Below are positions 41,507-49,078 of a stretch of DNA of 64,000 bases, piece after piece; positions within the stretch are counted from its first letter, which is position 1; each line of letters begins with the position of its first letter. Where the stretch lies: positions 1 through 64,000 of the forward strand of contig SVBE01000002.1 of the NCBI GenBank assembly GCA_015059065.1, written 5' to 3'. The notes beneath the pieces are model-generated. The model did no database searches, was not told the DNA's origin, and worked only from the letters and a program-made list of their open reading frames with translations. This DNA is from Erysipelotrichaceae bacterium (lineage in GTDB: Bacteria > Bacillota_I > Bacilli_A > RFN20 > CAG-826). Position numbers and translations under genes: made by a program.

Positions 41507-42703
41507 ATGTCAAGATACGTTGGCACGACATCTAGAGGTATTAGATGTCCAATCTTCAAAGAAGGCGATGATCTTGCAAAGATCGTTACCGAAAGCGTTC
41601 TCACAGCTTCTAAGGGTGAGAACTTCCCTATCAAAGATAGAGATGTTATTTGTATCACAGAAAGCGTCGTCGCGAGAACTCAAGGCAATTACTGCACTAT
41701 TGACGATATCGCTACAGACGTTAAAAACAAATTTGGTGAAGGATCCACTATCGGCGTTATCTTCCCAATCTTAAGTAGAAATAGATTTTCTATTCTTCTT
41801 AAAGGTATTGCTAGAGGCGCAAAGAAAGTCGTCATCATGCTCTCCTATCCATCTGATGAAGTCGGTAATGCTTTATTAACTTATGACCAATTAGATGAAA
41901 AAGGCATTAACCCATATACCGATGTCTTAAGCCTTGCTAAATACCGTGAATTATTCGGTAGAAACGAACACGAATTCACTGGTGTTGACTACGTTCAATT
42001 CTATGAAGACTTAGTCACTGAACAAGGCGCGGAAGTCGAAGTCATCTTCGCTAACCAAGCAAAAGCTATCTTACCTTACACTAAGAAGGTCTTAACTGCT
42101 GATATTCACACTCGTGCAAGAAGCAAACGTTTACTTAAAGAAAATGGTGCGGAAGTCGTCCTTGGCTTAGATGACATTATGACTGATTCAATTAATGGAT
42201 CTGGCTACAATAAGAAATACGGCTTACTCGGTTCTAACAAAGCCACTGAAGATAAAGTCAAACTCTTCCCAAGAGATGCTCAACCATTAGTAGAAACAAT
42301 CCAAGCTAACATCTTAAAAGAAACTGGTAAACACGTCGAAGTTATGGTGTACGGCGACGGTGCCTTCAAAGACCCACAAGGAAAGATTTGGGAACTCGCT
42401 GATCCAGTGGTCTCCCCATTCTTCACCAAAGGTTTAGTCGGCACACCAAACGAATTAAAACTAAAATATCTCGCCGATAACCAATTCGCTGATTTAAAGG
42501 GTGATGAACTCAAAAAAGCGATTGAAAAATCCATCAAAACTAAAGACGCTAACTTAAAAGGAAAGATGGCAACAGAAGGAACTACTCCAAGACAATTAAC
42601 TGACTTAATCGGTTCCTTATGCGACCTCACTTCTGGAAGTGGCGACAAAGGTACTCCAGTCGTTTATATCCAAGGTTATTTCGATAACTACACTAACGAT
42701 TAA
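41507..42703 (+). CDS. CofE-like gamma-glutamyl ligase family protein
   Basis: A 398-residue protein related to coenzyme F420-0:L-glutamate ligase (CofE, F420_ligase domain). The start RGIRCPIFKEGDDLA, VICITESVVARTQGNY (about 45-60) and the C-terminal GTTPRQLTDLIGSLCDL fit the family; it is longer than archaeal CofE (about 250). This lineage is not expected to make F420, so another gamma-glutamylated cofactor is likely. CofE relatives have been linked to folate polyglutamylation in bacteria lacking FolC. AGGAGG precedes the start, 2 bases after the FAD dehydrogenase gene. A terminator follows. Confidence 0.8.
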   Translation: MSRYVGTTSRGIRCPIFKEGDDLAKIVTESVLTASKGENFPIKDRDVICITESVVARTQGNYCTIDDIATDVKNKFGEGSTIGVIFPILSRNRFSILLKGIARGAKKVVIMLSYPSDEVGNALLTYDQLDEKGINPYTDVLSLAKYRELFGRNEHEFTGVDYVQFYEDLVTEQGAEVEVIFANQAKAILPYTKKVLTADIHTRARSKRLLKENGAEVVLGLDDIMTDSINGSGYNKKYGLLGSNKATEDKVKLFPRDAQPLVETIQANILKETGKHVEVMVYGDGAFKDPQGKIWELADPVVSPFFTKGLVGTPNELKLKYLADNQFADLKGDELKKAIEKSIKTKDANLKGKMATEGTTPRQLTDLIGSLCDLTSGSGDKGTPVVYIQGYFDNYTND

Positions 42704-42769: not shown

Positions 42770-43567
42770 CTAATTTGATAAAACTACGGAATCAGGCACT
42801 TCACCGATAGAGGAGAATAATTTAACAAGATCTTCAATGGTTAATTTCTGTTTTTCTTCCCCGCTAGCTTCATAGATGATTTTGCCACCATCCATCATGA
42901 TTAAGCGATTGCCATATTTAATCGCATCTTTCATGTTGTGAGTAATCATTAATGTTGGCACTTTAGATTCTTTAACGATCTTATCAGTGAGTTCCATAAT
43001 TCTTTTAGCCGTCTTTGGATCAAGCGCGGCAGTATGTTCATCAAGCAACAAAATCTTTGGATTGCTCATCGAAGCCATCAGTAATGTCACCGCTTGTCTT
43101 TGCCCTCCAGAAAAAGTGCCAACTGGAACATCTAATCTATCTTCTAAACCAAGTCCTAATGGTTTCAATAAATCCTTAAACATCTGTCTTTGATTTGTGG
43201 AAAGTGCCCAACGGAATGGAGACTGTTTTTTTCCTCTTCTAGAAGCGATAGAAAGGTTCTCAAATAAAGACATATCCGCGATTGTACCTTGTAGAGGATC
43301 TTGGAAGACACGACCCACATATTTCGCGCGTTGATAATCCTTCTTTTTATTGATGTCCTGATCATCTAATAGGATTCTGCCATTATCCACAGGATAGATA
43401 CCAGAGATGGAATTTAATAATGTTGTTTTACCAGAACCGTTAGAACCAATGACAGTGATGAAATCGCCTTCGTTAATGGTGAGGGAGACACCTTGTAATG
43501 CGCGTTTATCATTCTCTGGATTGTTATCAAGATGAAATGTTTTATAAATATTGTCCACTACTAGCAT
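42770..43567 (-). CDS. ABC transporter ATPase of a TrpXYZ/TyrXYZ-type importer
   Basis: A 265-residue ATPase. Walker A is GSNGSGKTT (about 36-44), the signature FSGGQRQAV, Walker B ILLLDEHTAALD, and the H-loop LMITHN. It resembles the ATPase encoded with TrpX-type binding proteins. In Walker B the usual Pro is replaced by His (DEH), as in several members of this branch. The ATG at 43567 lies inside the end of the permease gene (GTATGCTAG); the frame also opens at 43588 but that start lacks support. The Tyr-rich leader upstream of the operon suggests an aromatic amino acid as substrate. Confidence 0.92.
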   Translation of the reverse strand: MLVVDNIYKTFHLDNNPENDKRALQGVSLTINEGDFITVIGSNGSGKTTLLNSISGIYPVDNGRILLDDQDINKKKDYQRAKYVGRVFQDPLQGTIADMSLFENLSIASRRGKKQSPFRWALSTNQRQMFKDLLKPLGLGLEDRLDVPVGTFSGGQRQAVTLLMASMSNPKILLLDEHTAALDPKTAKRIMELTDKIVKESKVPTLMITHNMKDAIKYGNRLIMMDGGKIIYEASGEEKQKLTIEDLVKLFSSIGEVPDSVVLSN

Positions 43568-44634
43568 ACACTTCTCTCTCCTAAACAATGTCTCACGAAC
43601 GATTCCTTCATACTCGTTAATTGCTTACGCGTTTGTGAAGGACCATTTCCTGGTTCTATTTCCTTATTTCTACCACCTGTGCCTATCTTATCTTTGATAA
43701 CCGCGATCAATAGCTGAACACCGATGATAAGGATGAGCAACAAGGCTTTATAAATCGATAACATAAATCCTTGAGTGTCGATTAACATCAAGATTTGAAT
43801 GAGATACCAGTAGATGATTGAACCAGCGATTGCAGACACTAAGCTCATCTTGAATGAACGAGGTGAGAATATCGTTTCTCCTAAGAATAATGAAGATAAG
43901 CCGATAACGATCATCCCTTGCCCATCCGTTGGTAAACCCATCGTATTATGTTGGCCATATAATGTCGCGGATAAACCGACCAGTCCACCCGATATCGCTA
44001 AACCAATAATCATCATACGGTTGATATTGATGCCATTTGCCCTGGCCATCGTTTTATTCTTACCAACCGCGCGGATTGCCATACCAAGTTCAGTACCAAA
44101 GAAGAAGTAGATAACCGCGGAAATTAAAAGCAAGATGACTAAAGCCACGATGATATATGAAAGATAAGAACTCCAGAACATGAATTCTCTTTTACTTGAT
44201 AAGTCCCAATCTGTCGCGATGCTATTTAATGCATTCTGCAACCAGTTAAATACTGTTTGACTGCTCGAAGCATCAAAACTTACGGAGCCAGAACGTAATG
44301 AGTTGATCATAATGCCGACACCGAAAGTTAAAGCCATCACGATGATACCTGAAAGCAAAGGCGGTGTTTTTAAATATATGGTTAATAAAGCATTCATCAC
44401 TCCACATACCGCTCCAATAATAATAGATAGGAATAATACCAACCAAGGATTAAGCCCATCCCCAATTAAAGCTGCTGTAAATAAAGTAATCATCGGCACT
44501 ATTCCTTCAACAGATAAATCAGCGATATCCAATATACGAAAGGAAATGAATACTCCTAACACCATCAAACCAAGGATCAAACCATTGACCCAAGGATTGA
44601 TGAAGAATGATGATATAGTCGAAACGTAAATCAT
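43561..44634 (-). CDS. ABC transporter permease of a TrpXYZ/TyrXYZ-type importer
   Basis: A 357-residue permease with about nine helices, similar to branched-chain-type permeases paired with ABC_sub_bind proteins. Conserved stretches are FRILDIADLSVEGIVPM (30-46) and GLVGLSATLYGQHNTMGLP near 215-235. It forms the membrane channel. A hydrophilic Gly/Asn-rich C-terminal tail of about 40 residues is cytoplasmic. Its start codon shares a base with the stop of the binding-protein gene, and its end overlaps the ATPase gene by 7 bases, so all three are coupled. Confidence 0.92.
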   Translation of the reverse strand: MIYVSTISSFFINPWVNGLILGLMVLGVFISFRILDIADLSVEGIVPMITLFTAALIGDGLNPWLVLFLSIIIGAVCGVMNALLTIYLKTPPLLSGIIVMALTFGVGIMINSLRSGSVSFDASSSQTVFNWLQNALNSIATDWDLSSKREFMFWSSYLSYIIVALVILLLISAVIYFFFGTELGMAIRAVGKNKTMARANGININRMMIIGLAISGGLVGLSATLYGQHNTMGLPTDGQGMIVIGLSSLFLGETIFSPRSFKMSLVSAIAGSIIYWYLIQILMLIDTQGFMLSIYKALLLILIIGVQLLIAVIKDKIGTGGRNKEIEPGNGPSQTRKQLTSMKESFVRHCLGERSVC

Positions 44635-45602
44635 TAGATTATTTTTGCTCCTTCAATATTAAGAACATCTTGAGGAATCGTTATGCCAAGAGAAGTAGCC
44701 CAAGTTTGATTGATAGTAATTTCTGATGTTGAACAATCTTGAACAGGAATATCTGCTGGTTTTTTGCCGTCCTTTATAATGGAAATCGCCATCTGTGCGG
44801 CTTGAACACCTGCACTGTAATAATTAATGCCAGAGCAGAAAATACTTCCTTCGATAATACCGACATCACATCCAGCGATAATTAATTTATTCGTTCTTGT
44901 CTCATTAGCTTGTTTCACTTGTCCAATAGCGTTAGCAATCGTGTCATCAGTAGGAAGGAATAAAGCATCCACATCCGCAGGGATAGAAGACATATCTAAA
45001 GCGGAAGCGATTTCAGAAGCAGAGGTAATCGTCTTACGAACATGTTCAACATTATGACTCTTGCACCACACATCGGCGATATCCGCTTGATAAACAGAAT
45101 TAACTTCAGTTGCAGTATAGAAAGAAACGATTTTATGAACATTAAACTTCGCTAAGATATCGAGCTCAGCAGCGATATCACTTAAATCGGTGACACCTGT
45201 GCAGTTGCCACCAGGTTTATCTAGTGAAGTAACTAATTTGGCACCAAGTGGATTAGTGACCGCAGAGAAGAGGACTGGAGTGTCTAAACCAAAAGAAGCA
45301 ACCGCGCTTTTTAAAGCACTCGCGCTAGGAGTAGCTACGCCATATAGTAAGTCACTACTAGAAGCTAATGTTGAAGCCATTGAAGCATTTGTCGCACCAT
45401 CCGCATTTGGATTTGAGATTTTGATTTCAATCTTATCTTTGATTTCTGAGTCATTCAAAGTATGGACGAATCCATCAGTGGCTTTTTGTAATGCTTCAAA
45501 AGATCCAAATTGAAGCACGCCGATTTTGGTTTTTCCGTTTCCACTACCACATCCAGTGACGAGAAGTGCTGAAACAGCAAGTAAGGCAAGTTTCTTTTTC
45601 AT
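44634..45602 (-). CDS. ABC substrate-binding lipoprotein (TrpX/ABC_sub_bind family)
   Basis: A 322-residue surface lipoprotein: signal MKKKLALLAVSALLV with lipobox VTGC (Cys18). The mature protein is an ABC_sub_bind (TrpX-like) periplasmic-fold protein; GVATPSASALKSA and TNPLGAKLV are typical of the family. Relatives in Firmicutes are predicted tryptophan or tyrosine binders. A Tyr-codon-rich leader peptide and an intrinsic terminator precede this gene in the same transcript, so tyrosine (or a related aromatic) is the best guess. GGGAG precedes the start. First structural gene of the three-gene importer operon. Confidence 0.92.
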   Translation of the reverse strand: MKKKLALLAVSALLVTGCGSGNGKTKIGVLQFGSFEALQKATDGFVHTLNDSEIKDKIEIKISNPNADGATNASMASTLASSSDLLYGVATPSASALKSAVASFGLDTPVLFSAVTNPLGAKLVTSLDKPGGNCTGVTDLSDIAAELDILAKFNVHKIVSFYTATEVNSVYQADIADVWCKSHNVEHVRKTITSASEIASALDMSSIPADVDALFLPTDDTIANAIGQVKQANETRTNKLIIAGCDVGIIEGSIFCSGINYYSAGVQAAQMAISIIKDGKKPADIPVQDCSTSEITINQTWATSLGITIPQDVLNIEGAKII

Positions 45603-45621: not shown

Positions 45622-45650
45622 TAAAAAATGCCTAGGTGGGAACACCTAGG
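45622..45650 (-). terminator. Attenuator terminator before the aromatic amino acid importer
   Basis: On the minus strand CCTAGGTG (45643-45650) pairs perfectly with CACCTAGG (45631-45638) around a 4-base loop, and six T residues follow. It lies between the leader peptide and the binding-protein gene, about 20 bases before the ATG, so it must be overcome for the operon to be expressed. Confidence 0.88.
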
Positions 45651-45667
45651 AACAACATCGCTTCATC

Positions 45668-45691
45668 GGTGTTCAACTTTCGTCTCCCACC
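45668..45691 (-). promoter_or_regulatory. Candidate antiterminator segments of the tyrosine attenuator
   Basis: On the minus strand GGTGGGA (45685-45691) and GAACACC (45668-45674) are complementary to TCCCACC and GGTGTTC within the terminator hairpin. Together they match 12 contiguous terminator bases, GGTGTTCCCACC, apart from a bulge. Pairing here would disrupt both terminator arms. Alternatively GGTG and CACC of this region pair with each other. Confidence 0.6.
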
Positions 45692-45712
45692 GCTTATTAA
45701 AACAATAGGAAA

Positions 45713-45778
45713 CTACCTAGTGTAATAATAATAGTAAAAGTAAACGCCATAGGAGTTAATCGTGTTTAACTTTTTCAT
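45713..45778 (-). CDS. Tyrosine-rich leader peptide (attenuator)
   Basis: A 21-codon ORF on the minus strand with seven Tyr codons: residues 10, 13 and 15-19, with Phe at 14 (end SYGVYFYYYYYTR). GAAGGT (45786-45791) sits 7 bases before the ATG as a ribosome site, and a promoter lies just upstream. The stop is followed by complementary segments and the intrinsic terminator before the ABC importer genes. This is the layout of trp/his-type attenuators: scarce Tyr-tRNA stalls the ribosome in the Tyr run and favours antitermination. The peptide itself needs no further function. Too short for automatic gene calling. Confidence 0.85.
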   Translation of the reverse strand: MKKLNTINSYGVYFYYYYYTR

Positions 45779-45799
45779 CTCGTTTACCTTCATGCAAAA

Positions 45800-45828
45800 A
45801 TCATATAACGGTTAGATGAATAGGACAA
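45800..45828 (-). promoter_or_regulatory. Promoter of the leader peptide and ABC importer operon
   Basis: On the minus strand TTGTCC (45823-45828), a 17-base spacer and TATGAT (45800-45805), about 21 bases before the leader ATG. Confidence 0.65.
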
Positions 45829-45887: not shown

Positions 45888-46436
45888 ATGTCGATTAAAA
45901 GAATTAGCAAAGATGCGATTTTATTAGCCTTATTATGTGTCACGGGAATGTTTTCTCTTCCCCTTGGCGATAATATCAAAGTGTCGCTTCAACTATTAAC
46001 ATTATTTATCATTTGGGGAATATGTGATGATATTTGGGACCGCATCTTAATCCCTGCTTTATATTTAGTAATAGGTTTATTCATTCCTGTATATGCGGGG
46101 TTCCAAGCAGGTATTACTCCTACCTTCGGCTTTGTCATCTCTTTTGTTGTCGCGGGTATCCCATTTCATTTCATCTATAAATATTTAAAAACCGGTCTTA
46201 TTATGAGGTACGTCCTCGCCTGTTTTGTATCTTTGCTCGTCGTCTATATCATCGGCACAGTTTATCTTAAGCTATATCTCAACATCGATTTTTCAAAAGC
46301 ATTATTAATCGCGGTTGTCCCGTATATTCCATTTGATATCAGTAAGATTGCCATCTGCACGGTGATACTAAATGCCCTACCAGATAAAATCAAAAATCCT
46401 AAGCCAGAGGTTGACCAAACACCAATAGAAAAATAA
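45888..46436 (+). CDS. bioY: Biotin transporter S-component BioY
   Basis: A 182-residue membrane protein with six helices, matching BioY, the substrate-binding subunit of ECF-type biotin importers. GDNIKVSLQLLTLFI and PVYAGFQAGITPTFGFVISF are family-typical. It works alone or with the shared EcfAAT energising module, which is not in the window. The start lacks a ribosome site and lies about 17 bases after a -10, so the leader is very short. A perfect palindrome at the promoter suggests repression. A terminator follows immediately. Confidence 0.85.
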   Translation: MSIKRISKDAILLALLCVTGMFSLPLGDNIKVSLQLLTLFIIWGICDDIWDRILIPALYLVIGLFIPVYAGFQAGITPTFGFVISFVVAGIPFHFIYKYLKTGLIMRYVLACFVSLLVVYIIGTVYLKLYLNIDFSKALLIAVVPYIPFDISKIAICTVILNALPDKIKNPKPEVDQTPIEK

Positions 46437-46460
46437 AAAGGAGCATAGCTCCTTTATTTT
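46437..46460. terminator. Terminator between bioY and the hydrogenase operon
   Basis: AAAGGAGC (46437-46444) pairs with GCTCCTTT (46448-46455), followed by ATTTT; A residues on the other side allow use in both directions. Confidence 0.85.
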
Positions 46461-46461
46461 A

Positions 46462-47889
46462 TTATTCAACGAATGTGGCAATCGAATCTTTAATGGAAGT
46501 CTCTTTTGCTTCGTGACCGTATTTATCGACTTCGTTTTTATCTCGCATCTCATGAGTTAGGTTACAAGGACCACCGATACAACCACCGACACAACCCATT
46601 CCTTCAATAAAATTGAAATCACGATTTGCTGATTTGGCTTTGTTGAGCATTAAACGGCAGTTATCAATCCCATCCACAAATACTGGTTTAGCTTCAAAGT
46701 CGCTACCTTGTTCTTTTAAGGCTTGTTTCACCGCATCGGTAAGACCACCACTACGGGCGAAGATACGGCCATAATATGAGGCGTTATCAAGCTGTGATTC
46801 TTCTAGAGATGCAACATCGATTTCACGTGCATCGATAAGAGCTTGTAATTCTTCAAATGTTAAAGTGAGATCCACATATTTCTTCACTTCTTCTTGTCTA
46901 ATTTCTTGTTTCTTAGAAATGCATGGTCCAATGAACATAATCTTGCATTCTGGATGTTGTGTTTTAATCCATCTCGCAATCGTTGCCATTGGAGATAAGT
47001 TAGAAGAGATGTGCTCCACTAATGTTGGGAAGTTCTTCTTAATAAAGGCGACAAATGTTGGGCAGCATGAAGAAGTCAAGAATCCTTTTTCTGCTAATTC
47101 TTTGGCTTCGTTATAGCTCACCATATCCGCGCCTAAAGCCGCTTCGACGACATCTTGGAATCCGAGTTTCTTAATCGCTGAGACGACTTGTCCTAATTTA
47201 TAATCTTTAAACTGGGTGGCAATCGATGGAGCGACAATCGCATAGACTGGATATTTCTTACAGTTATCGCTGTCTCTTAAAATTTCAATCGCTTCTTTGA
47301 TATAGGATTTATCCATGATCGCACCAAATGGGCATTGATAGACACAAGCACCGCATTGAATGCATTTGCTGTCATCGATTTTCGCCGCATGATCTTCATC
47401 CATAGAAATGGCTCTCACCTTACAGGATTGTTCACATGGTCTGATGAAGTTTTGAATCGCATTATATTGGCAAGCTTTCGCGCACATACCACAGTTGATA
47501 CATTTAGTTTTATCAATATAAGCAGCACGTGTTCTTTCATCGAATTTAATCGCTTCTTTATGACAAGCTTGTTCACATCTATGAGCGATACAACCACGAC
47601 ATCTATTCGTCACTTCATATCCACCTAATGGACATTCATCACAAGCGATTTTAATAACTTCAACGACGTTATCGATATTCTTATTCCCGCCTAATGCGAG
47701 TTTCATTCTTTCTAAAACAATCGCTCTTTCTTTATAGATACAGCAACGCATCGTGGATTTAGGACCAGGAGAAATACGCTTTGGAATCTCGTTATAATCC
47801 TCTAATAAAGTGTTGCTGTAAACAGCTTTAGCAATCTCTTTTAAAACTCTATATTTAAGTTCTTGAACTCTTGTATCGAAATGTGGCAT
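46462..47889 (-). CDS. Monomeric [FeFe]-hydrogenase, group B-like
   Basis: A 475-residue [FeFe]-hydrogenase that reversibly reduces protons to H2, probably with ferredoxin. The N-terminal half has several Cys clusters for 4Fe-4S groups (CRGC...C, CINCGMC, CIQCGACVYQCP). The H-cluster motifs are TSSCCP (272-277), GPCISKK (321-327) and MGCVGGCIGGPC near the C terminus. The GG-C-x-GGPC form and overall order fit group B monomeric enzymes. The frame opens at 47964, but the ATG at 47889 follows AAGGAG by 7 bases. Last gene of the hydrogen operon. HydEFG maturases, needed for activity, are not in the window. Confidence 0.92.
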   Translation of the reverse strand: MPHFDTRVQELKYRVLKEIAKAVYSNTLLEDYNEIPKRISPGPKSTMRCCIYKERAIVLERMKLALGGNKNIDNVVEVIKIACDECPLGGYEVTNRCRGCIAHRCEQACHKEAIKFDERTRAAYIDKTKCINCGMCAKACQYNAIQNFIRPCEQSCKVRAISMDEDHAAKIDDSKCIQCGACVYQCPFGAIMDKSYIKEAIEILRDSDNCKKYPVYAIVAPSIATQFKDYKLGQVVSAIKKLGFQDVVEAALGADMVSYNEAKELAEKGFLTSSCCPTFVAFIKKNFPTLVEHISSNLSPMATIARWIKTQHPECKIMFIGPCISKKQEIRQEEVKKYVDLTLTFEELQALIDAREIDVASLEESQLDNASYYGRIFARSGGLTDAVKQALKEQGSDFEAKPVFVDGIDNCRLMLNKAKSANRDFNFIEGMGCVGGCIGGPCNLTHEMRDKNEVDKYGHEAKETSIKDSIATFVE

Positions 47890-47899
47890 ATCTTTCTCC

Positions 47900-49078
47900 T
47901 TAATAATAACTAATCTTAACGTTCTTACCGGCTCTTTTGAGTAAACCAGCAAGTTCATCAACAATTTTCATCTTAATCTTTATATTGATGTGAGTATCTT
48001 CGCCTTGGTGAGCAGGATTGACCGCACATCCCACGAAGAAGTTGATGTCGGTCGCTTCCTCAAGCAAGATCATCGCGATCTGTGAAGCTCCATCAAGGTT
48101 ATACTGTCTATCAAAATATAACGCATTGCTATTTAGATAATCTTCAGCGTAGACCAATACTTTGTTGAGAGTGACAATTCCTTCTGTCACTAGGTCAACA
48201 CCTTCAATCTTTGCCGTCGGCGGAATCTCTTTATCCACATAATCTAAATCGAGAATAAGTGGTTTATTGAGATATCGTGAGACGATGTTTGAAGTCGTGC
48301 CCCCACTGACGATATGAGTCCCACCTTTAGAGAAGAATAAGGACAACATCATTTCATCATCATCTTTATTAGTTGCCGGACCAAATAATAAATTGGCTTG
48401 GTTTCTCTCTCTTATCCTAAGCACGGCGACGGTTGTATCATCACCAGGACGCGCATTATATAAGGCATCGCATTTGGCTACTAATTCAGTGGCTAAGCCT
48501 TGGCTAGAGGTATATTTGCTATATATGTTAGCAACATAATTTTTAATCTGAGGCAAATCCCAACCGAAATTAAGCGTCTCTCCAACACCTGCGTATTTCA
48601 CCCCATCACTCATCAACACAAAAGTATCATAGACTGAAGCGTGATATTTCGCATGATAAATAGTCTTTCCTTCGACAATAGAAGAAGAATAATCGAGATC
48701 TACTATTTTGCCATCATGGACTAAGAAAGGGGTTGGATTATCAAAATTATAGATTTCCACGAACATATCACCACTCACTTTGATGATGGTGAATGTAGAA
48801 TATGCGACCTGTCTTTCTTTACATATTGGGAGAGTTCTCGCAACAGCCTTAACGCATTCTTTAATTGATAAATTGTTCGCTACCATCGTGGAAAGCATCT
48901 TGCTTGTTAAGGTCGATAAGATGTTAGCTTTAACACCACTTCCTAAGCCATCAGAAAGGACCATGATGGTCGTATCTTCATCAGGCTTAACAATCTCCAC
49001 TCTATCCCCACAAAGCTCTTCGCCAAAATGGTTGATTGAATGATAACCAGCTTCCACTATGTAGCGATCATTCATCAT
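47900..49078 (-). CDS. SpoIIE-type PP2C serine phosphatase, hydrogenase-associated
   Basis: A 392-residue protein with an N-terminal PP2C/SpoIIE phosphatase domain (about 1-230). Metal-binding motifs are MVLSDGLGSG (39-48), VLMSDGVK and GDDTTVAVL. The C-terminal 150 residues have no clear match and may bind a partner. Such phosphatases travel with sensory (group C) [FeFe]-hydrogenases and are thought to pass an H2 signal on by dephosphorylating a protein target. It overlaps the PAS remnant by 11 bases and precedes the hydrogenase gene by 10 bases. Its presence argues that the locus is a sensing module and not only an H2-evolving enzyme. Confidence 0.9.
   Translation of the reverse strand: MMNDRYIVEAGYHSINHFGEELCGDRVEIVKPDEDTTIMVLSDGLGSGVKANILSTLTSKMLSTMVANNLSIKECVKAVARTLPICKERQVAYSTFTIIKVSGDMFVEIYNFDNPTPFLVHDGKIVDLDYSSSIVEGKTIYHAKYHASVYDTFVLMSDGVKYAGVGETLNFGWDLPQIKNYVANIYSKYTSSQGLATELVAKCDALYNARPGDDTTVAVLRIRERNQANLLFGPATNKDDDEMMLSLFFSKGGTHIVSGGTTSNIVSRYLNKPLILDLDYVDKEIPPTAKIEGVDLVTEGIVTLNKVLVYAEDYLNSNALYFDRQYNLDGASQIAMILLEEATDINFFVGCAVNPAHQGEDTHINIKIKMKIVDELAGLLKRAGKNVKISYY

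Follow-up and report, generated by a model that had tools for sequence, protein, structure and literature searches.

Leader-peptide attenuation is a textbook device of enteric bacteria, and Firmicutes are described as relying on T-boxes. In the his- and trp-type layout, a short open reading frame (ORF) with a run of cognate codons is followed by nested alternative hairpins and an intrinsic terminator, and the position of the ribosome picks the fold. The Tyr-rich leader region discussed here resembles hisL and the trp, phe and thr leaders of enteric bacteria in each of these respects, i.e. in its cognate codon-run ORF, nested hairpins, intrinsic terminator and ribosome-position choice. It differs from them in that the codons are Tyr rather than His, the target is an importer instead of a biosynthetic operon, and there is no sequence relation; moreover, the hosts belong to Bacillota and Chloroflexota, whereas the enteric systems are found in Proteobacteria. 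The his-type attenuator layout has been described (PMC9413887).

Among Gram-positive bacteria, His leader-peptide attenuators have been described for hisZ/hisS in Bacilli (PMC2965389), and His leader attenuators of his operons in the B. cereus group, Peptostreptococcaceae and Erysipelotrichales (PMC9413887). Both these and the present system represent classical Gram-positive leader-peptide attenuation replacing T-box control, although the former rely on His codons, occur in few lineages and precede synthetase or biosynthesis genes, while the latter relies on Tyr codons, precedes an importer and is much more widely spread. The uORFC-13-1 motif upstream of aroF in Acholeplasma is a Phe-type uORF candidate (PMC8632094). 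It likewise places an aromatic-codon uORF before a terminator and an aromatic amino acid gene, in a related lineage; in contrast to our leaders it is a Phe candidate (at least one Phe codon) at a biosynthetic gene of one genus, with no Tyr run. In S. suis, trpXYZ is controlled by a Trp T-box (PMC9382623). The importer is homologous and transcription is again attenuated by tRNA charging, but the T-box binds tRNA directly, with a UGG specifier and no leader peptide. Additionally, PMC13009471 cites a leader rich in Leu for S. aureus.

A search of open-access papers gave no description of a Tyr-specific leader attenuator, though one may exist behind a subscription. As a mechanism the system belongs to a known class, and it is the Tyr class, its importer target and its breadth of distribution that appear to be new. 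A Tyr-specific class in front of one importer clade in many Bacillota lineages would imply that ribosome-sensing attenuation is widespread there.

The importer operon and its leader region

The stretch of DNA analysed here (64,000 nucleotides, hereafter the window) corresponds to positions 1–64,000 of the forward strand of contig SVBE01000002.1 from an Erysipelotrichaceae bacterium (GCA_015059065.1), a draft genome of about 90% completeness. The locus is located on the minus strand and includes three importer genes:

44634–45602, minus strand: substrate-binding lipoprotein (SBP), TrpX/TyrX-like (PF04392)
43561–44634, minus strand: importer permease (PF02653), start overlapping the SBP stop
42770–43588, minus strand: importer ATPase (PF00005), overlapping the permease

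The successive overlaps agree with the coupling of the three genes proposed in the original prediction. The SBP scores 208 bits against NCBIfam NF041285 (tryptophan ABC transporter SBP TrpX), below the curated cut-off of 390; judged by sequence it is a relative of NF041285 TrpX, without assignment to that family. Neither a T-box (RF00230) nor any other cis-regulatory Rfam family was detected at gathering score within the window, and the T-box core is absent, as had been claimed. T-boxes are present elsewhere in the genome, in front of genes that we take to be valS, ileS and alaS. The importer is absent from the sole other genome of the same genus, and no plasmids were found carrying the locus.

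Upstream of the SBP gene, the following elements were assigned, with the Shine–Dalgarno-like site and the Tyr codons read directly from the sequence:

45800–45828, minus strand: putative sigma-70 promoter, TTGTCC-17-TATGAT (9/12 match)
45787–45791, minus strand: Shine–Dalgarno-like GAAGG, 8 nt 5′ of the leader ATG
45713–45778, minus strand: leader peptide ORF of 21 codons, MKKLNTINSYGVYFYYYYYTR (ATG 45778, TAG 45713; Tyr density reached in 0/3000 shuffles)
45751–45749 and 45742–45740, minus strand: two other leader Tyr codons
45722–45736, minus strand: five consecutive Tyr codons, at which the stall is proposed

The 21-codon ORF with seven Tyr codons, five of them consecutive, is confirmed; it contains one Phe codon. 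In dinucleotide shuffles of the 400-nt upstream region, an ATG ORF of 8–45 codons with at least seven Tyr in 12 codons never appeared (0/3000), and one with at least five Tyr in 12 codons appeared in 6/3000. An in-frame ATG at 45793 would give a possible 26-codon peptide, but coincides with the predicted transcription start. Sequences matching the promoter and ribosome site claimed earlier are both present; still, the GAAGG motif is short, and the promoter match taken singly does not stand out from chance, as ten matches of this grade (9/12) were seen in the region against 8.7 expected. Across 83 distinct leaders, a TTGAC box was located 25–85 nt 5′ of the leader start in 19, compared to an expected 4.5%. 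The genome contains 11 matches to TAYTAYTAYTAY, most of them not leaders; the other sites were rejected as leaders on account of long frames or of frames without a plausible start.

Downstream of the leader ORF, a T-rich stretch is followed by GCGGTGGGAGAC (45693–45682), GTTGAACACCGA (45677–45666) and the terminator CCTAGGTG-TTCC-CACCTAGG (45650–45631), a perfect intrinsic terminator between the leader and the first importer gene. The segments that engage in alternative pairing, and the T tract as read from the sequence, are as follows:

45715–45720, minus strand: segment A, CTAGGT, leader end; in the read-through fold, paired to ACCTAG of the terminator 3′ arm
45700–45713, minus strand: segment B, GTTTCCTATTGTTT, beginning at the last base of the stop codon; pairs with C
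45682–45695, minus strand: segment C, AAGCGGTGGGAGAC, containing GGTGGGA; pairs with B (14 bp) or D
45668–45674, minus strand: segment D, GAACACC; pairs with C (hairpin 45692–45667, terminating state) or E (antiterminator)
45639–45650, minus strand: segment E, terminator 5′ arm CCTAGGTG plus loop TTCC; the antiterminator partner GGTGTTC is 45646–45640
45631–45638, minus strand: segment F, terminator 3′ arm CACCTAGG; pairs with E
45623–45628, minus strand: terminator T tract, TTTTTT

GGTGGGA and GAACACC, which had been claimed to be complementary to the perfect terminator, are indeed so, the former to its loop and 3′ arm and the latter to its 5′ arm and loop. Their proposed role as two antiterminator segments holds in part: GAACACC is the conserved antiterminator strand, whereas GGTGGGA is mainly a sequestering strand. 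The original prediction had also left the switching geometry open, with a stop codon far before the first antiterminator segment. This is resolved by segment B, which had been missed and which lies at the stop codon and pairs with GGTGGGA.

Folding as a function of ribosome position

The leader RNA was folded with the leader occupied or free, as the original prediction had proposed, with the ribosome edge fixed 10 nt past the A-site codon by assumption. When the ribosome occupies the stop codon, B is hidden as far as about 45703, and the minimum free energy (MFE) structure consists of the C:D hairpin (45692–45667) and the E:F terminator. Placing the ribosome at Tyr13 or Tyr15 switches the fold: the MFE structure (−34.1) combines the 14-bp B:C helix with D:E (GAACACC with GGTGTTC), an outer helix joins the leader end CTAGGT to the terminator 3′ arm, and the terminator is gone. 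The full-length MFE structure retains the terminator when the ribosome is absent. For a ribosome on the last Tyr codon, the full-length equilibrium fold still has the terminator, so that the model predicts a stall early in the run. The truncated-RNA measure introduced below is flat in the window (7.7 versus 7.9).

By analogy, this fold logic is that of a nested attenuator of the his-operon type, and the locus is very likely a ribosome-mediated transcription attenuator that senses tyrosine via tRNA-Tyr charging and controls a tyrosine ABC importer operon. When Tyr-tRNA is ample, the ribosome would get to the stop codon at 45713 and cover most of B; C would then pair with D, E would stay free, and the E:F terminator would form, ending transcription before the importer. 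Conversely, when Tyr-tRNA is scarce the ribosome would stall early in the Tyr run and leave B free, whereupon B:C would form over 14 bp, D would be released to pair with E, and with the terminator blocked the importer would be transcribed. Stalling at uncharged Tyr codons, read-through in vivo and a response of read-through to Tyr-tRNA charging are what the arrangement of these parts predicts. The translation-dependent, Tyr-specific attenuation originally put forward is the best-supported reading, given that nearly all relatives with the importer keep leader and terminator and that segment B fixes the geometry.

Distribution of Tyr leaders among relatives

The importer protein search took in the order (86 of 279 genomes), the class (91 of 395) and named genomes; the MAGs among them are incomplete. 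Contig searches gave no matches with a single SBP as query and gave matches with an alignment as query. A Tyr-rich leader, defined as an ATG ORF of 8–45 codons with at least four Tyr in 12 codons, precedes the importer in 74 of the 87 usable upstream regions at order level (antisense 1; shuffles 0.9%). With a stricter threshold of at least five Tyr in 12 codons, 67 of the 87 regions qualify (antisense 0; shuffles 0.14%), and terminators are found in nearly all leader loci. Relatives that had the importer but lacked the Tyr run or the terminator would have spoken against the original prediction; nearly all keep both. The comparison of related loci that it had proposed showed Tyr runs as well as covarying stems, evident from the leader counts above and from the B:C and D:E partner tests (see below).

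Further members of the class have a Tyr leader in 18 of the 24 loci inspected. Tyr leaders also occur in Streptococcus (ending YFYSYFR), in Clostridia (Anaerofustis, Crickella, Eubacteriaceae) and in a Chloroflexota bin labelled Leptolinea, and in many of these outlying leader loci (class, Streptococcus, Clostridia, Chloroflexota) SBP identity to the window is down to 31–38%. Leader sequences and hairpins diverge freely among relatives. The sole feature common to the leaders is Tyr density, with both TAT and TAC in use (302/158). They are a natural system for studying how a codon run and nested hairpins persist while all else drifts. Two architectures were distinguished. In the first, the window type, B begins at the stop codon, and related loci have B inside the leader end, 3′ of the Tyr run. 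In the second, a hairpin of CCAAGA with TCTTGG extends over both the leader end and the bases 3′ of the stop codon; CCAAG after the last Tyr codon with CTTGG within 70 nt is found in 26 of 83 distinct leaders. Seven Streptococcus leaders (L113, L117, L119, L129, L138, L140 and L141) show a longer spacer, with the terminator about 140–150 nt past the stop codon, and repeated GTTTGTA/TGCAAAC and ATCTATG/CATAGAT elements that suggest extra nested hairpins.

The residue composition bears on the specificity of the sensor. Phe ranks second in frequency among the final 14 leader residues, at 14%, and F/Y alternation is seen in several lineages (YFYFYYFYFR; HFYYFSFFR in S. henryi), as expected for a mixed sensor that stalls at Tyr and Phe codons upstream of a general aromatic amino acid transporter. 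This reading is unlikely: Tyr makes up 36% of the same residues, pure runs of 5–8 occur only for Tyr, the window leader contains a single Phe, and Phe codons, being one base from Tyr codons, can arise by drift. The leaders are also short and end close to the Tyr cluster, which would suit nascent-peptide arrest of the TnaC type, where free tyrosine in the exit tunnel, and not tRNA charging, would be sensed by the leader peptide. Such a mechanism is very improbable, as no residue pattern is conserved beyond Tyr density, there is free variation in how many Tyr codons occur and in what order, and the fold logic turns the operon on upon an early, starvation-like stall rather than upon arrest near the stop codon.

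Pairing and switching across loci

To return to attenuation by tRNA-Tyr charging, the alternative pairings were evaluated by an own-partner test on mechanically chosen windows of 72 non-redundant loci, similar loci having been collapsed; the loci are not phylogenetically independent. For D:E, the 45 nt before the terminator prefer their own 5′ arm and loop (mean rank 0.10, z 11.6, top decile in 54/72). For B:C, the 45 nt past the ribosome-at-stop edge prefer their own stop-codon region (mean rank 0.16, z 9.7). The three pairings that served as controls on the same 72 loci gave mean ranks of 0.48–0.55 and z near zero. For hand-picked segments of 19 window-type loci, B:C, C:D, D:E and E:F each reached p = 0.00005 compared to p = 0.73 for B:D; as these segments were chosen by eye, with the selection bias that this entails, we rely on the mechanical-window test instead. 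Mutually exclusive antiterminator and terminator hairpins are kept by covariation.

The computed dependence of the fold on ribosome position, codon run versus stop, extends to other loci and is weaker at full-length equilibrium. When the ribosome was moved from the stop codon to the Tyr run, the terminator 5′ arm gained on average 2.4 nt of upstream pairing over 100 loci, against 0.41 (sd 0.26) for spacer-shuffled controls, none of which was as high (0/1000). This measure, for which the RNA is truncated before the terminator 3′ arm, is more informative than full-length folding, which is weak as a cross-locus test because the terminators are strong. At full-length equilibrium, stalling destabilises the terminator by more than 1 kcal/mol in 28/100 loci, and switching by the set thresholds, for which the terminator must also be favoured at the stop codon, was seen in 20/100 loci versus 2.7% of shuffles. 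As clear full-length destabilisation is confined to those 28 loci, co-transcriptional kinetics have to be invoked for most cases.

Riboswitches and T-boxes likewise rely on alternative hairpins with a terminator, and T-boxes control related importers. Direct action on the RNA by a tyrosine riboswitch or an atypical T-box, with the ORF incidental, is nevertheless even harder to credit than peptide arrest: the region contains no Rfam family or T-box core, no aptamer sequence is conserved between lineages, where only the Tyr ORF and the alternative pairings persist, B sits right at the stop codon in loci of the window type, and the ORF is missing in antisense and shuffled sequences. Finally, a chance Tyr-rich ORF before an ordinary operon terminator, for which the ease of TAT runs in AT-rich DNA and the mostly non-leader TAYTAYTAYTAY matches could be cited, is already refuted by the comparative tests, namely the window shuffles, the excess of leaders with at least five Tyr in 12 codons among relatives, and the partner tests.

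T-box paralogues and substrate

Nine of the order-level regions without a Tyr leader have T-boxes with a UGG (Trp) specifier, which was read from the Rfam alignment or, for L073, from close relatives. The remaining leaderless regions comprise a second tandem copy (L051), one region that has neither element (L068) and a handful of sequences that are partial or weak. Five genomes (G076, G059, G188, G187 and G182) each carry the importer once behind a Tyr leader and once behind a Trp T-box, and such paralogues within one genome allow a direct comparison of both regulators. In three of these genomes (G188, G187 and G182; loci L072, L073 and L076) the Trp T-box has a degenerate antiterminator core, GGTGGCATAG replacing GGTGGNACCG, and L073 is missing much of the region from stem I to the antiterminator. 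Two class-level importers (L194 and L197, in G487 and G341) show neither a Tyr leader nor a T-box match; they have in common a conserved upstream element, with ggattgtctaattaaa, a stretch of TTATTCCATCC/GGAATA and a terminator, and may be under a different regulator.

In a tree built from 52 SBPs, the nine T-box proteins and L068 fall opposite all 41 Tyr-leader proteins (split support 92/95), with two changes of regulator label compared to 10.2 for shuffled labels. Regulator type tracks importer clade, and the importers of the Trp T-box loci make up a clade of their own. The two groups of importers cannot be told apart by NCBIfam TrpX scores. Taken with the pairing data, the distribution points to what is probably an undescribed and widespread class of Tyr-specific leader attenuators (“tyr leader”), controlling a tyrosine-importer clade in at least one Chloroflexota genome as well as in Bacilli and Clostridia. 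The class would preserve the B:C/C:D/D:E logic through replacement of nearly all the primary sequence, and would take the place of the T-box of the sister tryptophan importers.

The nearest solved chains to the window SBP are 3LFT, 6HNI and 3LKV, which bind Trp, Tyr and Phe, respectively (PMC6816091). The tyrosine hydroxyl in 6HNI is bonded to Glu-263, and Tyr-279 keeps Trp out (PMC6816091). The window SBP has Asp and Tyr at the corresponding columns, as do most T-box paralogues; these columns are consistent with Tyr, not decisive. The CD0873 selectivity residues were rejected as a discriminator between Tyr and Trp, since they fit Tyr in the window SBP yet are shared by most Trp T-box paralogues. 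Prephenate dehydrogenase was not found in the genome (about 90% complete), and the organism is therefore probably a Tyr auxotroph that probably needs import. From leader and protein sequence together we infer that the importer substrate is tyrosine. The Tyr leader may in this way offer a route, from sequence alone, to assign Tyr specificity among ambiguous Trp/Tyr/Phe importers.

Neighbouring genes

Divergent from the Tyr leader lies a gene for a BioY-type biotin transporter (45888–46433, plus strand), and a bidirectional-looking terminator (46437–46455) precedes the next gene. The latter region continues with a monomeric [FeFe] hydrogenase of group B1 (46462–47964, minus strand; NCBIfam TIGR04105, 561 bits), which is preceded by a gene for a SpoIIE-domain phosphatase (47900–49078). 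On the other side of the importer, an F420-0:gamma-glutamyl ligase family protein (41507–42700, plus strand; PF01996, E 6e-57) is encoded beside an FAD-dependent oxidoreductase. An F420 ligase family protein in a Bacilli genome is unexpected if F420 is not made here.
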